The notes under the pieces are model-generated. The model had not been told where the DNA came from. It saw nothing but the letters and a program-made list of their open reading frames with translations, and searched no databases. The translations under genes were made by a program, and so were the position numbers. This document shows positions 44,567-50,888 of a DNA stretch of 64,000 bases, piece after piece. Position 1 is the stretch's first letter. Each line of letters opens with the position of its first letter. The stretch is from assembly GCA_018604165.1 (NCBI GenBank), contig CP075895.1, positions 2,165,001 through 2,229,000 of the forward strand, in the 5' to 3' direction. Origin of the DNA: Chitinophagaceae bacterium LGM1. GTDB taxonomy: Bacteria; Bacteroidota; Bacteroidia; Chitinophagales; Chitinophagaceae.

Positions 44567-45310
44567 CTATGCTCCCCCCATTAGCCTGAGTACCTTCTCT
44601 ACATCTTCAGGATTATCAATAGAATGGCAGTCGTAGTTGGTTATGGCGCATTGTATAGTGTAGCCTGCTTGTAGCCAACGTAGTTGTTCCAGCGATTCTG
44701 CTTTTTCAAGTGTGCCGATGGGCAGTTTACATATTTGCTCCAGTAAATCGGTACGATAAGCATACATGCCTATATGCCTGTGGTAGGTGAACTGTTTATG
44801 CCATTCCTGTTGTGGTGCGCCTTTTACATAAGGTATCATCATACGGCTGAAGTAGAGTGCCTCATTACGCTCGTTCATCACCACTTTTACATTGCTCATA
44901 TCAGCAAGTACATCGTAATTGTTGGTAGGTATTACCAATGTTGCCAATTGCGTATCGCCATCTTGCAATACGGCTGCTAATGTATCTATTTGCGATGGTT
45001 CTATAAAAGGTTCGTCACCCTGTATGTTGATGACATAGCTGTAATCACCACCTGTTTTTTGTAATGCTTCCCAACACCTGTCAGTACCACTTGGGTGCTC
45101 CGTACTTGTCATTACCACCTCTCCGCCAAACGATAATACATGTTTCGCAATACGTTCATCATCTGTGGCTACTACTACTTTACTCAAAGATGTTGCCTGG
45201 ATAGCCTGTTCGTACACACGTTGTATCATCGTCTTACCATTAATGTCTGCCAATGGCTTGCCGGGAAAACGTGTAGATGCGTAGCGAGATGGTATGATGC
45301 CGAGTATCAT
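44567..45310 (-). CDS. kdsB: 3-deoxy-manno-octulosonate cytidylyltransferase
   Basis: A 247-residue enzyme that activates KDO as CMP-KDO for lipopolysaccharide. The opening IIPSRYASTRFPGKPLADI is the nucleotide site, and VINIQGDEPFI and GIMYAYR-type (HIGMYAYRTDLL) segments are characteristic. It starts 4 bases after the kdsC-like gene and forms with kdsA, waaA and the aldolase-CBS gene a KDO block. Confidence 0.96.
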   Translation of the reverse strand: MILGIIPSRYASTRFPGKPLADINGKTMIQRVYEQAIQATSLSKVVVATDDERIAKHVLSFGGEVVMTSTEHPSGTDRCWEALQKTGGDYSYVINIQGDEPFIEPSQIDTLAAVLQDGDTQLATLVIPTNNYDVLADMSNVKVVMNERNEALYFSRMMIPYVKGAPQQEWHKQFTYHRHIGMYAYRTDLLEQICKLPIGTLEKAESLEQLRWLQAGYTIQCAITNYDCHSIDNPEDVEKVLRLMGGA

Positions 45311-45314
45311 TGTA

Positions 45315-46013
45315 CTAATGTTCTTCTATTATTTGAGAATCTTTGCTGATGTAGAATGAGGGTACTGTTTCGTTGCGTAGATTGATGTATGTTTTATACA
45401 CCTCACCATAGTGCATACGGTTGGCGATGGTTTCGTTGTAGAGTCCACTAAGCCCTGTGAGCAGTTCTACGGCTTCGCGTACTGCGCCTTCGCCACCAAC
45501 ACAGGCAGTCATATAATCAACCAGTCCGTTTTGTACGGCAAACTCTGCCAGTAGTGGGGCACAGGGGCGTGGTATCATAATGCGGAGTCCGCATTTTTCA
45601 GCAGCACCAAAATCCAGTACATCATCAAAAACAAAAGCCACTTCATGGGGTTGGATGCCGTGCTTGTCGCAAAGATGTTGCAGTGCTTCCGTCTTCAGTT
45701 TGATGCGGCTGTACACGCCATGAAAACATTCGCGCTTTGCCAATGTCCAAGCGGCACTATTGCGCTCACCCGATATGATGGCAACGATAGGTACATCATT
45801 GTGGCGCAGGTAATGATTGAAACGAAGCATGTTAGTACCCATTGCATCTACCTCGCTGAAGCTACTCGTGCCGTTTTCGTCCTTCACCCCATTATTAAAT
45901 ACGCCATCCCAATCAAATATATAGGCTTTGATACGCGATAGTTTTTCCTGTACATCCTGTACGGGCGTTATAAAGCTGCCTTTGAAATGGCTGATGATGG
46001 TATTGATGTCCAT
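45315..46013 (-). CDS. KdsC-like HAD phosphatase (KDO-8-phosphate phosphatase)
   Basis: A 232-residue HAD hydrolase. The catalytic loop is DWDGVFNNG (the usual form is DVDGVLTDG), the second motif is IISGERNS, the Lys is in RIKLKTEAL, and the metal acids are in FDDVLDFG; GGEGAVREAVEL is the KdsC C-terminal signature. It carries extra N-terminal (28) and C-terminal (about 45) residues beyond a standard KdsC. Position between kdsB and the aldolase gene supports KDO-8-phosphate as substrate, though divergent HAD activity on a related acid is possible. Confidence 0.85.
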   Translation of the reverse strand: MDINTIISHFKGSFITPVQDVQEKLSRIKAYIFDWDGVFNNGVKDENGTSSFSEVDAMGTNMLRFNHYLRHNDVPIVAIISGERNSAAWTLAKRECFHGVYSRIKLKTEALQHLCDKHGIQPHEVAFVFDDVLDFGAAEKCGLRIMIPRPCAPLLAEFAVQNGLVDYMTACVGGEGAVREAVELLTGLSGLYNETIANRMHYGEVYKTYINLRNETVPSFYISKDSQIIEEH

Positions 46014-46139: not shown

Positions 46140-47153
46140 CTACAATCCCTTCAGGTCTTGTATATCGAGCATGCCAACTGGCTTGCCATTTTCGGTAACC
46201 AGTATAGTATCTACATGCGTTTTCTTAAACAATACGGCTGCATCATTCAGTAATGCGTTGGCATCTACACTAATGGGTGTTTTGTATTCCATATCACCCA
46301 TTTTTCTGCCAAGTATTTGTTCTCCATCTTTCTGCAAAGAACGGCGTATGTCGCCATCTGTAAACACACCTTTCACGCTGCCATCTGCATTGGTAACCGT
46401 TACAGCACCGAAGCCATAACCTGTCATTTTAACCAAGGCACTTTGCAATGTATCATCAGCAGATACAATCGGGTTGATGCCATTTGCCGCTTCTTTTACG
46501 CGTACTGTCATGAGGCGAGTATCAACCAAAAACTGCTCTGTACCAACTGTGGTAAAGTTATTCTCCGTCAGGCTTTTTAATACTTTCAACGGCACAGTGA
46601 TGGTGTGTACACCTATGTTGATGGCATTGCGTACATGCTCGTTGTGGCGCACGGAACTGAACATGATTTTGGTATCATATCCGTAATGTTCAACTGCATC
46701 TACGCATTGCTCTACCAAAGTCAATGCATCGTGCCCCTGATCTTGCAGGCGACCTACAAGCGGACAAACGTACGTAGCACCTGCGTGCATAGCCATATAT
46801 GCTTGTTGCAGTGTATATACAAGGTGTACATTCACCAACAAGCCTTCTTTGCGTAGCAAATTACAAGCACGTACACCTTCCAGCGATACGGGTATTTTAA
46901 AGACTGTCCTCTTGGGGTCTAAACCCAGATTGAGTTGGCGGTGCGCTTCTTTCAGCACATCTTCGGCTGTATCACCCAGTGCCTCTATCTGTAATACAGG
47001 CACCATTTTGCTCAACTTCACGATAGTACCGTCTATATCGGTAATGCCCTCGCGCTGCATGAATGTAGGCGTAGTGGTAAGGCCATTCAAAAAGCCCAGC
47101 TTAAAACCTTCTTCAATCTCTTTAAGATTGGCGGAGTCTAAATATAATTCCAT
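46140..47153 (-). CDS. Transaldolase/fructose-6-phosphate-aldolase-like domain fused to a KdsD-type CBS pair
   Basis: A 337-residue fusion. Residues 1-215 form a TalC/FSA-type barrel: MELYLDSANLKEI with Asp6, the TTNPS loop present as TTTPT (Asn28 replaced by Thr), the Schiff-base Lys86 in VFKIPVSLEGV, and VCPLVGRLQDQGHD. Residues 218-337 are two CBS domains with GVFTDGDIRRSL, close to GIFTDGDLRR of KdsD. KdsD makes arabinose 5-phosphate for KDO synthesis but uses a SIS isomerase domain, which is missing here. The gene is followed by kdsC and kdsB and preceded by kdsA on the same strand. I infer arabinose-5-phosphate supply or its control; an FSA can join glycolaldehyde and glyceraldehyde 3-phosphate to arabinose 5-phosphate in vitro. 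Sugar use is unproven. Confidence 0.85.
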   Translation of the reverse strand: MELYLDSANLKEIEEGFKLGFLNGLTTTPTFMQREGITDIDGTIVKLSKMVPVLQIEALGDTAEDVLKEAHRQLNLGLDPKRTVFKIPVSLEGVRACNLLRKEGLLVNVHLVYTLQQAYMAMHAGATYVCPLVGRLQDQGHDALTLVEQCVDAVEHYGYDTKIMFSSVRHNEHVRNAINIGVHTITVPLKVLKSLTENNFTTVGTEQFLVDTRLMTVRVKEAANGINPIVSADDTLQSALVKMTGYGFGAVTVTNADGSVKGVFTDGDIRRSLQKDGEQILGRKMGDMEYKTPISVDANALLNDAAVLFKKTHVDTILVTENGKPVGMLDIQDLKGL

Positions 47154-47193: not shown

Positions 47194-48027
47194 TTATTTC
47201 CTGTATTTAACCTCTAAGTTGTGCAATTCAATCAGCGGTTTCAGGTATTCTTCCAAATCGTACACGCATAGCTGGCTGGCCGCATCGCAGAGGGCTTTTT
47301 CGGGTTCGGGGTGCGTTTCTATAAATACACCGTCAACGCCGGCTGCTACACCCGCCCTGCCCAGTACGGGCAAAAACTCTCTGGTACCGCCCTTGGCATC
47401 GGCACTTGGTATGCCGTATTTGCGGATGGAGTGCGTAATATCAAACACAACGGGATAACCTAATTGTGCCATGTGGTAGAAAGCGCGCGGGTCAACCACT
47501 AAATCGTTATAGCCCATTGTATAGCCACGCTCTGTCAGTATTATTTTATCATTGCCCGCATCTACACATTTGCCTACGGGGTGCTTCATGTTTTCGGGTG
47601 CGAGAAACTGTCCGTGTTTGATGTTGATAACCGCACCCGTAGCAGCAGCAGCCTTTAGTAAGCCCGACTGCATACACAAGTATGCGGGTATCTGCAACAC
47701 ATCGCACACCTCTGCGGCAGGGGCAGCTTGGTCTGGGTAATGAATATCGGTAAGTACAGGAAAGCCGAATTGCTCTTTTACTTTGGCCAATATCTTAACA
47801 CCTTTTTCAAGCCCCGGCCCGTCGTAATACTTGAGGCTACTACGATTGTCTTTGGTAAAGGACGATTTGTAGATGATGGGGATGTTCAGTCTTTCGCCTA
47901 CTTCTTTCAGTGTTTCGGCGGTCTTCATCATCGTAGTTTCATCCTCTATCACACACGGGCCTGAAATCAGAAACAGTTCATCAGCACCACAAGCAATATT
48001 GCCAACCTGTATTTTTTTAGCACTCAT
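47194..48027 (-). CDS. kdsA: 3-deoxy-8-phosphooctulonate synthase
   Basis: A 277-residue enzyme condensing phosphoenolpyruvate with arabinose 5-phosphate to KDO 8-phosphate. Motifs are LISGPCVIEDE, YKSSFTKDNRSS, GFPVLTDIHYPDQ, AYLCMQSGLL, KHGQFLAPENM, ILTERGYTMGYNDLVVD and FDITHSIRKYG. It lies 40 bases before the aldolase-CBS gene. The kdsA-aldolase-kdsC-kdsB run is a KDO biosynthesis operon, probably interrupted upstream by a restriction-modification pair that separates it from waaA. Confidence 0.97.
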   Translation of the reverse strand: MSAKKIQVGNIACGADELFLISGPCVIEDETTMMKTAETLKEVGERLNIPIIYKSSFTKDNRSSLKYYDGPGLEKGVKILAKVKEQFGFPVLTDIHYPDQAAPAAEVCDVLQIPAYLCMQSGLLKAAAATGAVINIKHGQFLAPENMKHPVGKCVDAGNDKIILTERGYTMGYNDLVVDPRAFYHMAQLGYPVVFDITHSIRKYGIPSADAKGGTREFLPVLGRAGVAAGVDGVFIETHPEPEKALCDAASQLCVYDLEEYLKPLIELHNLEVKYRK

Positions 48028-48133
48028 AATTGTACGGTATTACTGCAAGGCAATAAGGCTGCCAAAGCAGGCGCAAAACTACACAAATAAAGCGAGAGCT
48101 ATTTAGATAATATTAATATTTTAATTAAGGTAA

Positions 48134-48925
48134 TTAAGCAACTTCAAGTAATAAGTCATCAACGACTTTTAATGGTATTCTTTTTATTTTTAGTCGCTTT
48201 TCAATCAACTTCACATATTCATCAGACATATCAGACATTATACATTTACGACGTAATGTTTTACATGCTGCACCAATAGTACCACCACCCGCCATCGGAT
48301 CATATATTAGGTCATTCTCCATGGATGTCATTAGAACTAATTTTTCATACACTTTTTCGGGTTTTTGAGATGGATGTCCTGTTTGTTCTTTTTTACCTAT
48401 GAAGCCTACTAATAATGGTTCTTCAATTACTGAAGTTGGTCCAGGGATAAATCTCATATTACTCTCTTCAAATCGTAACTGTTGTTGTGGGTTAAAAAAA
48501 TTTTGAGGATACATCTTCGCTTTTTTTTGCGCATAGTGCAAGCATGCTTGTTGACTAGAACGCCACCCGCGAATTACAGAAGGATTATTTTTGTAATACC
48601 AAGTAAGCCAACATACAAACTCCAAAGGGGGGGGTATTTTATTAATGAATTGAGCTACAATTTCGGGAAACCCCCATAGAAATAGATGGTTTGTATTATC
48701 AGATATGTTAGAAATAATATCTAAGATATATGGTACGTAATCCTCTCTAACTCCACCTGTTCCTCTGTTATACCAAGGGTCCAACATAGTCATTTGAGGG
48801 TGATAACCCAACAAATACATTAAGCGCATGCTTTCAGATGCATCCATTGGTGGTAAAACAACAACTCCATTTTTATCTAATAAGCTATCTATATATAATT
48901 TAGCTGTCGTACTATTTTTTTTCAT
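48134..48925 (-). CDS. DNA methyltransferase of a type II restriction-modification pair
   Basis: A 263-residue SAM-dependent DNA methylase. The catalytic motif IV is DPWY (residues about 42-45) and comes before the cofactor motif I DPMAGGGTIG (about 212-221), the order of beta-class amino methyltransferases. The TGHPSQKPEKVYEKLV segment is a strong family signature. AT-rich DNA relative to the flanking KDO genes indicates acquisition. Its start overlaps the end of the nuclease gene by 14 bases. Methylation of adenine N6 or cytosine N4 is expected; the site is unknown. Confidence 0.88.
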   Translation of the reverse strand: MKKNSTTAKLYIDSLLDKNGVVVLPPMDASESMRLMYLLGYHPQMTMLDPWYNRGTGGVREDYVPYILDIISNISDNTNHLFLWGFPEIVAQFINKIPPPLEFVCWLTWYYKNNPSVIRGWRSSQQACLHYAQKKAKMYPQNFFNPQQQLRFEESNMRFIPGPTSVIEEPLLVGFIGKKEQTGHPSQKPEKVYEKLVLMTSMENDLIYDPMAGGGTIGAACKTLRRKCIMSDMSDEYVKLIEKRLKIKRIPLKVVDDLLLEVA

Positions 48926-49625
48926 TGTTGCGTATTAATTTGCTAATTACACCTTTTTCATCTTTTATGTAACCGAAATAATCTAATAGAAAACTAAAGA
49001 CAATTTGCTTTTGTTGTTCTGTAGAAGATTGGATAATTGCATAAACATTCATTTTCCCAGTACTAGTGTCCCAGTAGTTTTTTTTCATTACCTGATGTCT
49101 GCCACATAATGCTTGCCATTGTTTAAAATCTGATGGGTCTGAAGTTGGGTTAATAGAATGTGGCTTTTTATGGTCTGGCGTTAATTTTACTCTTCCGCCG
49201 CCTATTGGATCAATTTGGTTTTCTTTTAATAAACAAGCTTTACCATCTTCCTTCCATTCACACATATGTTTTGCTCGTTCTAAAACTTTAGTCCAAGTTT
49301 CTTTATCAGGTCTTATTCTCTTGCCTGCTTGAGGCCGTTTATCTGAAGAAGGCATAAGATATTCTTCCACCCTTAGCCAACCCTTATTTCGCCAAGATAA
49401 TATAGTATATCCATCATCTGTCCTTAATTCTGATAATCGTTGATGCCAATTTTCTGGTTCTTTACCTGTTATAGGGTCTATTGAAACCTTTTTTATTTGT
49501 TCACTAGTAATTACTTTGCCTATGTTGTCAAGGAATAATGCTTCAATTCTCTGTTTAATAGATTTTTGTATGTATTTCTTTCTTACTGTTGCATATATTT
49601 TTATAGACTTATCCATTTTCGCCAT
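48912..49625 (-). CDS. HNH-type restriction endonuclease
   Basis: A 237-residue protein paired with the methylase. The N-terminal half looks like a winged helix (LFLDNIGKVITSEQIKKVS, LSELRTDDGYTILSW). The C-terminal half has an HNH-like core with Cys pairs: MCEWKEDGKAC, then LTPDHKKPHS, and WQALCGRHQVMKKNYWDT. The gene overlaps the methylase gene by 14 bases on the same strand, the compact layout of a type II system. An alternative start is at 49616. I cannot name its recognition sequence. Confidence 0.78.
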   Translation of the reverse strand: MAKMDKSIKIYATVRKKYIQKSIKQRIEALFLDNIGKVITSEQIKKVSIDPITGKEPENWHQRLSELRTDDGYTILSWRNKGWLRVEEYLMPSSDKRPQAGKRIRPDKETWTKVLERAKHMCEWKEDGKACLLKENQIDPIGGGRVKLTPDHKKPHSINPTSDPSDFKQWQALCGRHQVMKKNYWDTSTGKMNVYAIIQSSTEQQKQIVFSFLLDYFGYIKDEKGVISKLIRNNEKK

Positions 49626-49646: not shown

Positions 49647-50888
49647 TTAGAACTTAGCAAATAGTTGATTAACCACCCTTTCCGTAGCCCCAGTTTGCGC
49701 TGCAATGTATGCCTGTATGGCTTTTTGCATGGTTTGGCGGGTAGTGTCGTCTTCTGTCAGGTTGGGCAATGAATTGTTAAAGTCTGCCGCGCTACTTATT
49801 GGAAATGCGTATTGGCGGGATACCAATGCCTTTGCTTCTATATACTTATCGTACTTGGGGCCGAAGAATACGGGCAGCCCAAACACCGCAGGCTCTAATA
49901 CATTGTGGATGCCATCGTTGAAGCCGCCACCTACATAGGCTATGTCTCCATAGCTATACAGGCTGGATAACATACCGATATTATCAATGATCAGCACACG
50001 ATAGCCGCATGGCTCTGCATCCAGTTGAGAGTACAATACGCTATGCCCTGCAAAGGCATCGTGCAGCGATTGTATATGTGCTGCGTCCACCTCGTGCGGG
50101 GCTATTACCAGTTTCCAATCATCGGGCAGGTTGGGTAGCGTTTGTTTCAATATCTCTTCATCGGCTGGCCATGTGCTGCCTGCAATAATGAGTTTGTCTG
50201 CTTCTTTAAACTTTTCAATAAGCGGAAAGGGCTTTACACTGGCGGCAATAGCAATCACCCTGTCGTATCGTGTATCGCCAGCTACTATTACATTCTCATT
50301 CAGCCCGATAGTAGCTAATAATTTTTTCGATTCATCGTCTTGAACAAAGAGGTAAGTAAAACAATGCAGCATCTTCCTGAATAGGCCACCACTTGGCTTG
50401 AAGAATATTTGCGATTTGCGGAAAACGGCTGATACCAATATGGTAGGCACTTGCGCTTGTTGCAATTGGGCAAGGTAGTAGTACCAAAACTCGTACTTTA
50501 CAAATATAGCAAGCGATGGGTTGACTAATGATACCAACCTGCGTGCATTGCCTCTGCTATCCATCGGCAGATAGTAGATGTAGTCTGCGCCTTTATAATC
50601 TTTCCTCACCTCGTAGCCTGATGGCGAGAAGAACGTCAGTACTATTTTATATGCAGGGTATTGTTGCCTGATAGCTTCTATCAATGGCCTGCCCTGTTCA
50701 AACTCGCCCAGCGACGAACAGTGTACCCATATCCGTTTTTCGTCTTTGCCTTGCAGGTCGGCAGCTATCTTATCCAACAATCCCTTTCTGCCATTGAGCC
50801 ATAGCCTTGCTTTATTGCCAAACAAAGCGGCTATGCGCACGGCTATGCGATATAGTAAAAGGAATATGTTGTAGAATAGCAGTTGCAT
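49647..50888 (-). CDS. waaA: KDO transferase
   Basis: A 413-residue GT-B glycosyltransferase that adds KDO residues from CMP-KDO to lipid A at the inner membrane. The N-terminal membrane-anchoring helix (FYNIFLLLYRIAVRIAALF), WVHCSSLGEFEQGRPLIEA, FVKYEFWYYYLAQL, and the C-terminal AYVGGGFNDGIHNVLEPAVFGLPVFFGP are characteristic. It belongs functionally with kdsA, kdsB and kdsC but is separated from them by the restriction-modification genes. It lies 6 bases after the serine dehydratase gene. Confidence 0.95.
   Translation of the reverse strand: MQLLFYNIFLLLYRIAVRIAALFGNKARLWLNGRKGLLDKIAADLQGKDEKRIWVHCSSLGEFEQGRPLIEAIRQQYPAYKIVLTFFSPSGYEVRKDYKGADYIYYLPMDSRGNARRLVSLVNPSLAIFVKYEFWYYYLAQLQQAQVPTILVSAVFRKSQIFFKPSGGLFRKMLHCFTYLFVQDDESKKLLATIGLNENVIVAGDTRYDRVIAIAASVKPFPLIEKFKEADKLIIAGSTWPADEEILKQTLPNLPDDWKLVIAPHEVDAAHIQSLHDAFAGHSVLYSQLDAEPCGYRVLIIDNIGMLSSLYSYGDIAYVGGGFNDGIHNVLEPAVFGLPVFFGPKYDKYIEAKALVSRQYAFPISSAADFNNSLPNLTEDDTTRQTMQKAIQAYIAAQTGATERVVNQLFAKF

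Follow-up and report, generated by a model that had tools for sequence, protein, structure and literature searches.

We found that the window, the 64-kb stretch of DNA analysed here as a whole, carries in its KDO operon a gene (46140..47153, minus strand) for a protein of 337 amino acid residues in which a TalC/FSA-type aldolase barrel (TAL) is joined to a pair of CBS domains. We propose, with good confidence, that this TAL-CBS fusion makes D-arabinose 5-phosphate (A5P) for the operon and replaces the SIS-type isomerase KdsD, very probably with a different chemistry, and that it does so in some other environmental Bacteroidota as well. The enzyme activity is inferred and the chemistry is untested; a search for biochemical data on any member of the fusion family found none. 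For the fusion itself, the analysis directly shows its taking of KdsD's place in genome content, its position in a KDO operon, the kept Schiff-base lysine, and a consistently altered active site.

An aldolase barrel fused to a KdsD-type CBS pair

The fusion gene starts with ATG and is supported by its open reading frame, its translation, Pfam, NCBIfam, and co-occurrence. It sits between kdsA (47194..48027) and a kdsC-like gene (45315..46013), which is followed by kdsB (44567..45310), and waaA lies at 49647..50888, all on the minus strand. The kdsA product, a KDO-8-phosphate synthase of the lineage that travels with the fusion, exceeds the cut-off of TIGR01362 (328.2 bits against 314), has PDB matches, and can be aligned to solved KdsAs across the KxNRSS stretch. 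The CMP-KDO synthetase KdsB likewise exceeds its cut-off (TIGR00466, 214.5 bits against 155.2), and the KDO transferase WaaA matches PF04413 with an E-value of 1.9e-45. The earlier note had named kdsA, kdsC, and kdsB as neighbours of the fusion; the first and the last are confirmed, while the kdsC neighbour encodes a divergent KdsC-like HAD phosphatase that stays under its cut-off (NF007019, 56.5 bits against 208). The absence of a SIS protein from the KDO cluster of the window, also claimed there, was upheld by Pfam and the SIS search.

The barrel covers residues 1-211 (46521..47153, minus strand), as supported by PDB matches, the fold match, and residue counts, and the CBS pair covers residues 213-334 (46152..46517, minus strand). 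Pfam identifies TAL_FSA (E 4.4e-34) and CBS (E 4.8e-15) in the fusion protein, and neither Pfam nor a PF01380 search gives a match to a SIS domain in it. In NCBIfam, the barrel scores 162.9 bits against the TalC/FSA model TIGR00875, whose cut-off of 245.95 is not reached, and the CBS part scores 50.4 bits against KdsD (NF008141, cut-off 505) and 48.3 bits against KpsF (TIGR00393, cut-off 203.7), so that all of these scores remain under the whole-protein cut-offs. The nearest sequence relatives of the barrel in the PDB are the TalC-type transaldolases 1vpx (1.9e-37) and 3r8r (4.7e-37). The predicted structure of the fusion has a mean pLDDT of 87.4 and a full-length pTM of 0.60, with low confidence at residues 198-202, and its top fold match is the transaldolase of T. 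acidophilum (3s0c). The earlier note had described a TalC/FSA-type barrel fused to a CBS pair of the KdsD type, with Asp6, Lys86 in VFKIPVS, Thr28 in TTTPT at the position of the usual Asn, and GVFTDGDIRR in the CBS part; the matches agree with this architecture, and every one of these residues and motifs is present in the translation. The full-length architecture is kept in each of the best 80 of 491 relatives (79-97% identity) and is therefore not a chance arrangement.

The CBS pair is closest to those of A5P isomerases, both in PDB sequence matches (4o9k, 8.1e-13, then 3k2v, 1.6e-8) and in Foldseek (3k2v at rank 1, 4o9k at rank 2), which bears out, together with NCBIfam, its assignment to the KdsD type. 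The fusion CBS pair is ~26% identical to the CBS pairs of 4o9k and 3k2v and about 25-35% identical to KdsD CBS pairs; the CBS tree was built on loci chosen largely for holding KdsD. The ligand in 4o9k is, as we assume, CMP-KDO. We propose only that the KdsD-like CBS pair may regulate entry into the pathway, perhaps by sensing this end product. Compared with the A5P isomerases KdsD, KpsF, and GutQ (TIGR00393, NF008141), the fusion shares the type of C-terminal CBS pair and, by genome content, the place in the KDO pathway, but it has an aldolase barrel where the SIS domain would be.

Distribution of the fusion and of KdsD

The source genome is a single contig of 3.32 Mb with a completeness of 99.99%. 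A normal kdsD elsewhere in it would, according to the earlier note, have refuted the proposal, but whole-genome searches with PF01380 and TIGR00393 found no SIS-CBS KdsD, which excludes a hidden copy. PF01380 matches at four sites, in three frames that all lack the layout of KdsD: a 618-residue protein with two domains (GlmS by layout), a 327-residue PGI/PMI-like protein, and a 193-residue GmhA-like protein, named by reading. TIGR00393 matches CBS regions only, and its best match is the fusion. Its second-best match, via the CBS part, is a 352-residue protein (L006:1480-2538) in which a CBS pair (TDGDLRR) precedes a nucleotidyltransferase-like domain, encoded next to a DegT-type aminotransferase.

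We compared 296 Bacteroidota genomes of at least 90% completeness, using thresholds of E <= 1e-20 for KdsD and E <= 1e-50 for KdsA. KdsD was present in 211/296 and KdsA in 219/296 genomes; 210 contained both, nine KdsA without KdsD, one (G114) KdsD without KdsA, and 76 neither. Besides G000, four genomes (G091, G292, G146, and G190) have a match over the whole length of the fusion, with 72-79% identity, and the further phylum matches, among the matches listed, are all TalC-like with at most 39% identity. The fusion is thus found, among the matches listed, in five of the nine genomes with KdsA but without KdsD, in none of the 210 with both, and in none of the 77 without KdsA; the other four of the nine are G023, G200, G268, and G284. 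In the window's class (73 genomes sampled), KdsA is present in 72, of which 67 contain KdsD without the fusion and five the fusion without KdsD, so that exactly one of the two occurs in every KdsA-bearing genome (72/72); G041, the sole genome of the class without KdsA, contains neither.

A sample of 248 genomes from the order (fusion at E <= 1e-80, KdsD at E <= 1e-20) gave the fusion in 8/248 and KdsD in 187/248. Seven of the eight fusion genomes are without KdsD, one of them, G363, being a draft of 90% completeness and 6% contamination, and the eighth, G454, has both genes. Within the family (82 genomes of the order sample), the fusion is present in 6/7 genomes without KdsD versus 1/75 with it, and G468 (locus L209) has a KdsA outside the window-type lineage but neither KdsD nor the fusion. 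The two alternate even within genera: in g1, the fusion is found in G000 and KdsD in G432; in g5, the fusion is found in G091 and KdsD in several others, including G387 and G399; and in g142, G454 has both, with KdsD only in G381 and G476. Fisher's p is 3e-8 for the KdsA-bearing genomes of the phylum and 1.4e-7 for the family, with relatedness ignored. The co-occurrence with kdsA and the anti-correlation with KdsD that the earlier note suggested examining are therefore both seen, as a near-complete mutual exclusion with G454 as the exception. G468 and the drafts G023, G200, G268, and G284, which have KdsA and neither enzyme, may reflect assembly gaps or perhaps other replacements of KdsD.

It could be supposed that another SIS enzyme, such as GlmS/GFAT, GmhA, or a PGI/PMI-like protein, supplies A5P through a side activity, and that the fusion serves the KDO operon otherwise, for example in regulation. 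Several eukaryotic GFATs, which contain SIS domains, rescue an E. coli mutant in A5P isomerase (PMC11301363), so a SIS protein other than KdsD can have this activity. The fusion genomes also retain GlmS and GmhA, and in G468 KdsA is present while KdsD and the fusion are both missing. Judged by size only, the SIS frames of G091, G146, G190, and G292 correspond to GlmS, GmhA, and MurQ-like proteins, with a PGI-like protein in G146, and none of the four genomes has a TIGR00393 match. E. coli has a GlmS of its own. According to the same source, E. coli K-12 without KdsD and GutQ is nevertheless auxotrophic for A5P (PMC11301363), which counts against such a side activity. A side activity would moreover leave unexplained the presence of the fusion in genomes that lack KdsD, and we consider this explanation improbable.

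KDO loci and the KdsA lineage

A scan of one genome per species (84,980 species) confirmed 491 relatives of the fusion, of which the best 80 were kept (L104-L183). These come largely from drafts of Bacteroidota, titled for example Chitinophagaceae, Flavipsychrobacter, or Taibaiella; a single draft titled Azovibrio is probably mislabelled. At least one KDO gene lies within at most 6 kb of the fusion in 71 of these best 80 loci, which agrees with the association with KDO genes on which the proposal depended, and no kdsD was found within that distance in any of the 80. The neighbours comprise kdsA (56 loci), a kdsC-like gene (60), kdsB (54), kdnA (50), kdnB (50), and waaA (21), and the commonest orders in the best 80 are kdnA-kdnB-kdsA-fusion-kdsC-kdsB (17 loci) and this order preceded by waaA (14 loci). 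Nine of the best 80 loci contain none of the KDO genes, three of them being short contigs of about 3, 7, and 11 kb (L140, L183, and L164, respectively). In the KDO-less loci L179, L181, and L182 (6001-7008), the fusion directly follows a gene read as phosphoglycerate kinase.

The KdnA representative matches 5k8b, an 8-amino-3,8-dideoxy-octulosonate transaminase (8e-132), and the KdnB representative matches 5k8c, a 3-deoxy-octulosonate 8-oxidase (1e-125), which implies that the operon product is an octulosonate and the acceptor of KdsA a pentose phosphate. These two Kdo8N genes stand beside the fusion in 50 of the best 80 loci each, but neither was found in the 64-kb window; the rest of the genome was outside this search. 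A role of the fusion in Kdo8N modification instead of A5P supply is disfavoured, though not excluded, because the window keeps the fusion without kdnA and kdnB and G249 has kdnA and kdnB without the fusion. The place between waaA and kdsA, where relatives such as L104 hold kdnA and kdnB, is occupied in the window (48134-49625) by a DNA methylase gene (PF01555) and a gene for a 237-residue protein without Pfam or NCBIfam match, which we read as restriction-modification-like. A 27-bp stretch of the window (48073-48099) matches the L104 sequence directly after waaA.

Among 33 KdsAs compared, 11 are 70-100% identical to that of the window and 22 are 42-53% identical. The window-type lineage occurs in 6/296 phylum genomes, namely the five fusion genomes and G249, and in 8/248 order genomes, which are exactly the eight fusion carriers. 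G249 provides a natural difference: its operon has the order kdnA-kdnB-kdsA-kdsC-kdsB, the fusion gene is absent, and the gene for KdsD lies ~2 Mb away. This gene content indicates that KdsAs of the window-type lineage work on the product of KdsD, which the fusion, too, would most likely provide. NRSS is found in 11/11 KdsAs of the fusion lineage versus 4/22 of the others, so that NRSS alone is no marker of A5P use.

The divergence of this KdsA lineage from the 22 others, and of the KdsC-like protein, which is far under its cut-off, could also mean that the fusion makes another aldose phosphate, from which the operon would form another 3-deoxy-ulosonate with no need of KdsD. We regard this as very improbable, since in G249 this KdsA lineage is accompanied by KdsD and not by the fusion, the KdsA of the window is over the KDO-8-phosphate synthase cut-off and aligns with the solved enzymes through the motif above, and the operon's kdnA and kdnB match enzymes named for KDO and 8-amino-KDO.

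Between G000 and the fusion genomes G091, G292, G146, and G190, the TAL-CBS proteins are 72-79% identical and the GlmS proteins 63-66%. The similarity of the cassette between orders is thus roughly that seen inside the family; as far as such sequence identities can tell, this suggests horizontal transfer, which is not proven. In G190 the fusion and kdsA lie on separate contigs. In G454 the operon is complete (waaA-kdnA-kdnB-kdsA-fusion-kdsC-kdsB), and its KdsD stands in a recQ-like/mannose-1-phosphate-guanylyltransferase-like context (named by reading) common to L060 and L062. This KdsD appears to have been acquired recently, provided that its 17-kb contig is binned correctly. The double carrier G454, the KdsA-only genomes (G468 and the four drafts), and the 9/80 loci without KDO genes speak against the proposal that the fusion replaces KdsD.

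The altered active site and possible routes to A5P

We counted active-site residues in 89 distinct fusion-type sequences (a few are pieces cut at locus ends, so the genes are slightly fewer) and in 26 ordinary TalCs from the loci, mostly those most similar to the fusion. Seven positions separate the two sets completely (89/89 versus 26/26): Thr28, His110, Tyr113, Cys130, Leu132, Gln137, and Ser166 in the fusion are Asn, Thr, Phe, Ser, Phe, Asp, and Ala, respectively, in TalC. In contrast, Glu57, Lys86, Asn108, Arg135, Ser167, and Arg169 are kept in all sequences of both sets, and so is Asp6, apart from a single gapped row. On the minus strand of the window, the codons are at 46896-46898 for Lys86, 47070-47072 for Thr28, 46824-46826 for His110, 46764-46766 for Cys130, and 46758-46760 for Leu132.

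In the FSA of E. coli, intermediates derived from the donor are contacted by Asp6 and Asn28, and the catalytic water is bound by Gln59, Thr109, and Tyr131 (PMC13259622). The fusion retains the Schiff-base lysine but has lost one donor contact (Asn28) and two of the three water-site residues, with only Glu57 left. Arg135, Ser167, and Arg169, together with Asp6, presumably form the acceptor/phosphate side. Compared with the TalC/FSA family (TIGR00875; 1vpx, 3r8r, 3s0c, and E. coli FsaA 1l6w), the fusion has in common the barrel fold, the Schiff-base lysine, Asp6, Glu57, Arg135, Ser167, and Arg169, but Asn28, Thr110, Ser130, and Phe132 are replaced, a CBS pair is added, the family cut-off is not reached, and the gene lies in KDO operons. 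Judged from its residues alone, the barrel is not that of a standard FSA or transaldolase. That the fusion is merely an ordinary transaldolase or fructose-6-phosphate aldolase regulated by its CBS pair, as the fold and lysine of TalC might suggest, can hardly be maintained, since it would not explain the link to KDO genes or the score under the TIGR00875 cut-off, and an ordinary TalC copy is ruled out by the separate TalC encoded in the same genome (L008) and by the change in 89/89 fusions of four active-site positions that are fixed in 26/26 TalCs.

Returning to the fusion as the source of A5P, we infer that Lys86 would form its Schiff base with an aldose at C1 and not with a ketose, because the residues contacting (Asn28) or lining (Ser130) the site of a ketose donor are replaced and the acceptor/phosphate side (Asp6, Arg135, Ser167, Arg169) is kept. 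The earlier note held that FSA enzymes can make A5P from glycolaldehyde and glyceraldehyde 3-phosphate. What is on record is that E. coli FsaA acts on A5P in the direction of cleavage, with a Km of 0.65 mM and a kcat of 3.6 per s, and that it is cited as more specific for A5P than for F6P (PMC6900487). An aldolase scaffold can thus handle A5P. The suggestion of a route to A5P that replaces KdsD is supported by the genome comparison, but an FSA-type aldol route has not been shown, and the active site departs from FSA further than that note had recognised.

Three chemistries may be considered for A5P formation by the fusion, without exhausting the possibilities. Aldol addition of glycolaldehyde to glyceraldehyde 3-phosphate is the likeliest of the three, but one that we entertain only tentatively, and the lack of an evident source of free glycolaldehyde is against it. 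Rather unlikely, though still conceivable, is a Schiff-base ribose-5-phosphate 2-epimerase, in which C2 would be inverted via an enamine on Lys86, whether or not a C-C bond is transiently cleaved, and His110 would serve as acid/base. Lys86 would trap the open-chain aldehyde of ribose 5-phosphate (R5P), C2 would be inverted directly or by retro-aldol cleavage and re-addition, and A5P would leave; since C2 is the sole difference between R5P and A5P, the reaction could proceed without free glycolaldehyde. We consider isomerisation of ribulose 5-phosphate without Lys86 less likely and doubtful: on chemical grounds, simple tautomerisation of a Schiff base at the C2 ketone of this substrate cannot give A5P, so the isomerisation would require chemistry free of Lys86.

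No description of an aldolase-type A5P enzyme or of a TAL-CBS protein was found in the open-licence literature, as far as titles and the beginnings of abstracts disclose. The first committed precursor of KDO, a sugar of the outer membrane, is the product of KdsD, an enzyme described as an attractive target for antibiotics (PMC4470864). Genome comparison gives good support to the role of the fusion, a remodelled class I aldolase joined to a KdsD-like CBS pair that recurrently displaces KdsD; its chemistry is untested. If the proposal is true, the fusion would represent a second, non-homologous evolutionary solution for A5P synthesis, recurring in at least 80 loci and alternating with KdsD within genera, in which an aldolase scaffold has been rebuilt for an aldose phosphate, and the apparent gap in the KDO pathway of the carrier species would be filled. 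If the epimerase reading is true, it would add a new enzyme activity on the aldolase scaffold, with feedback control via the CBS pair.
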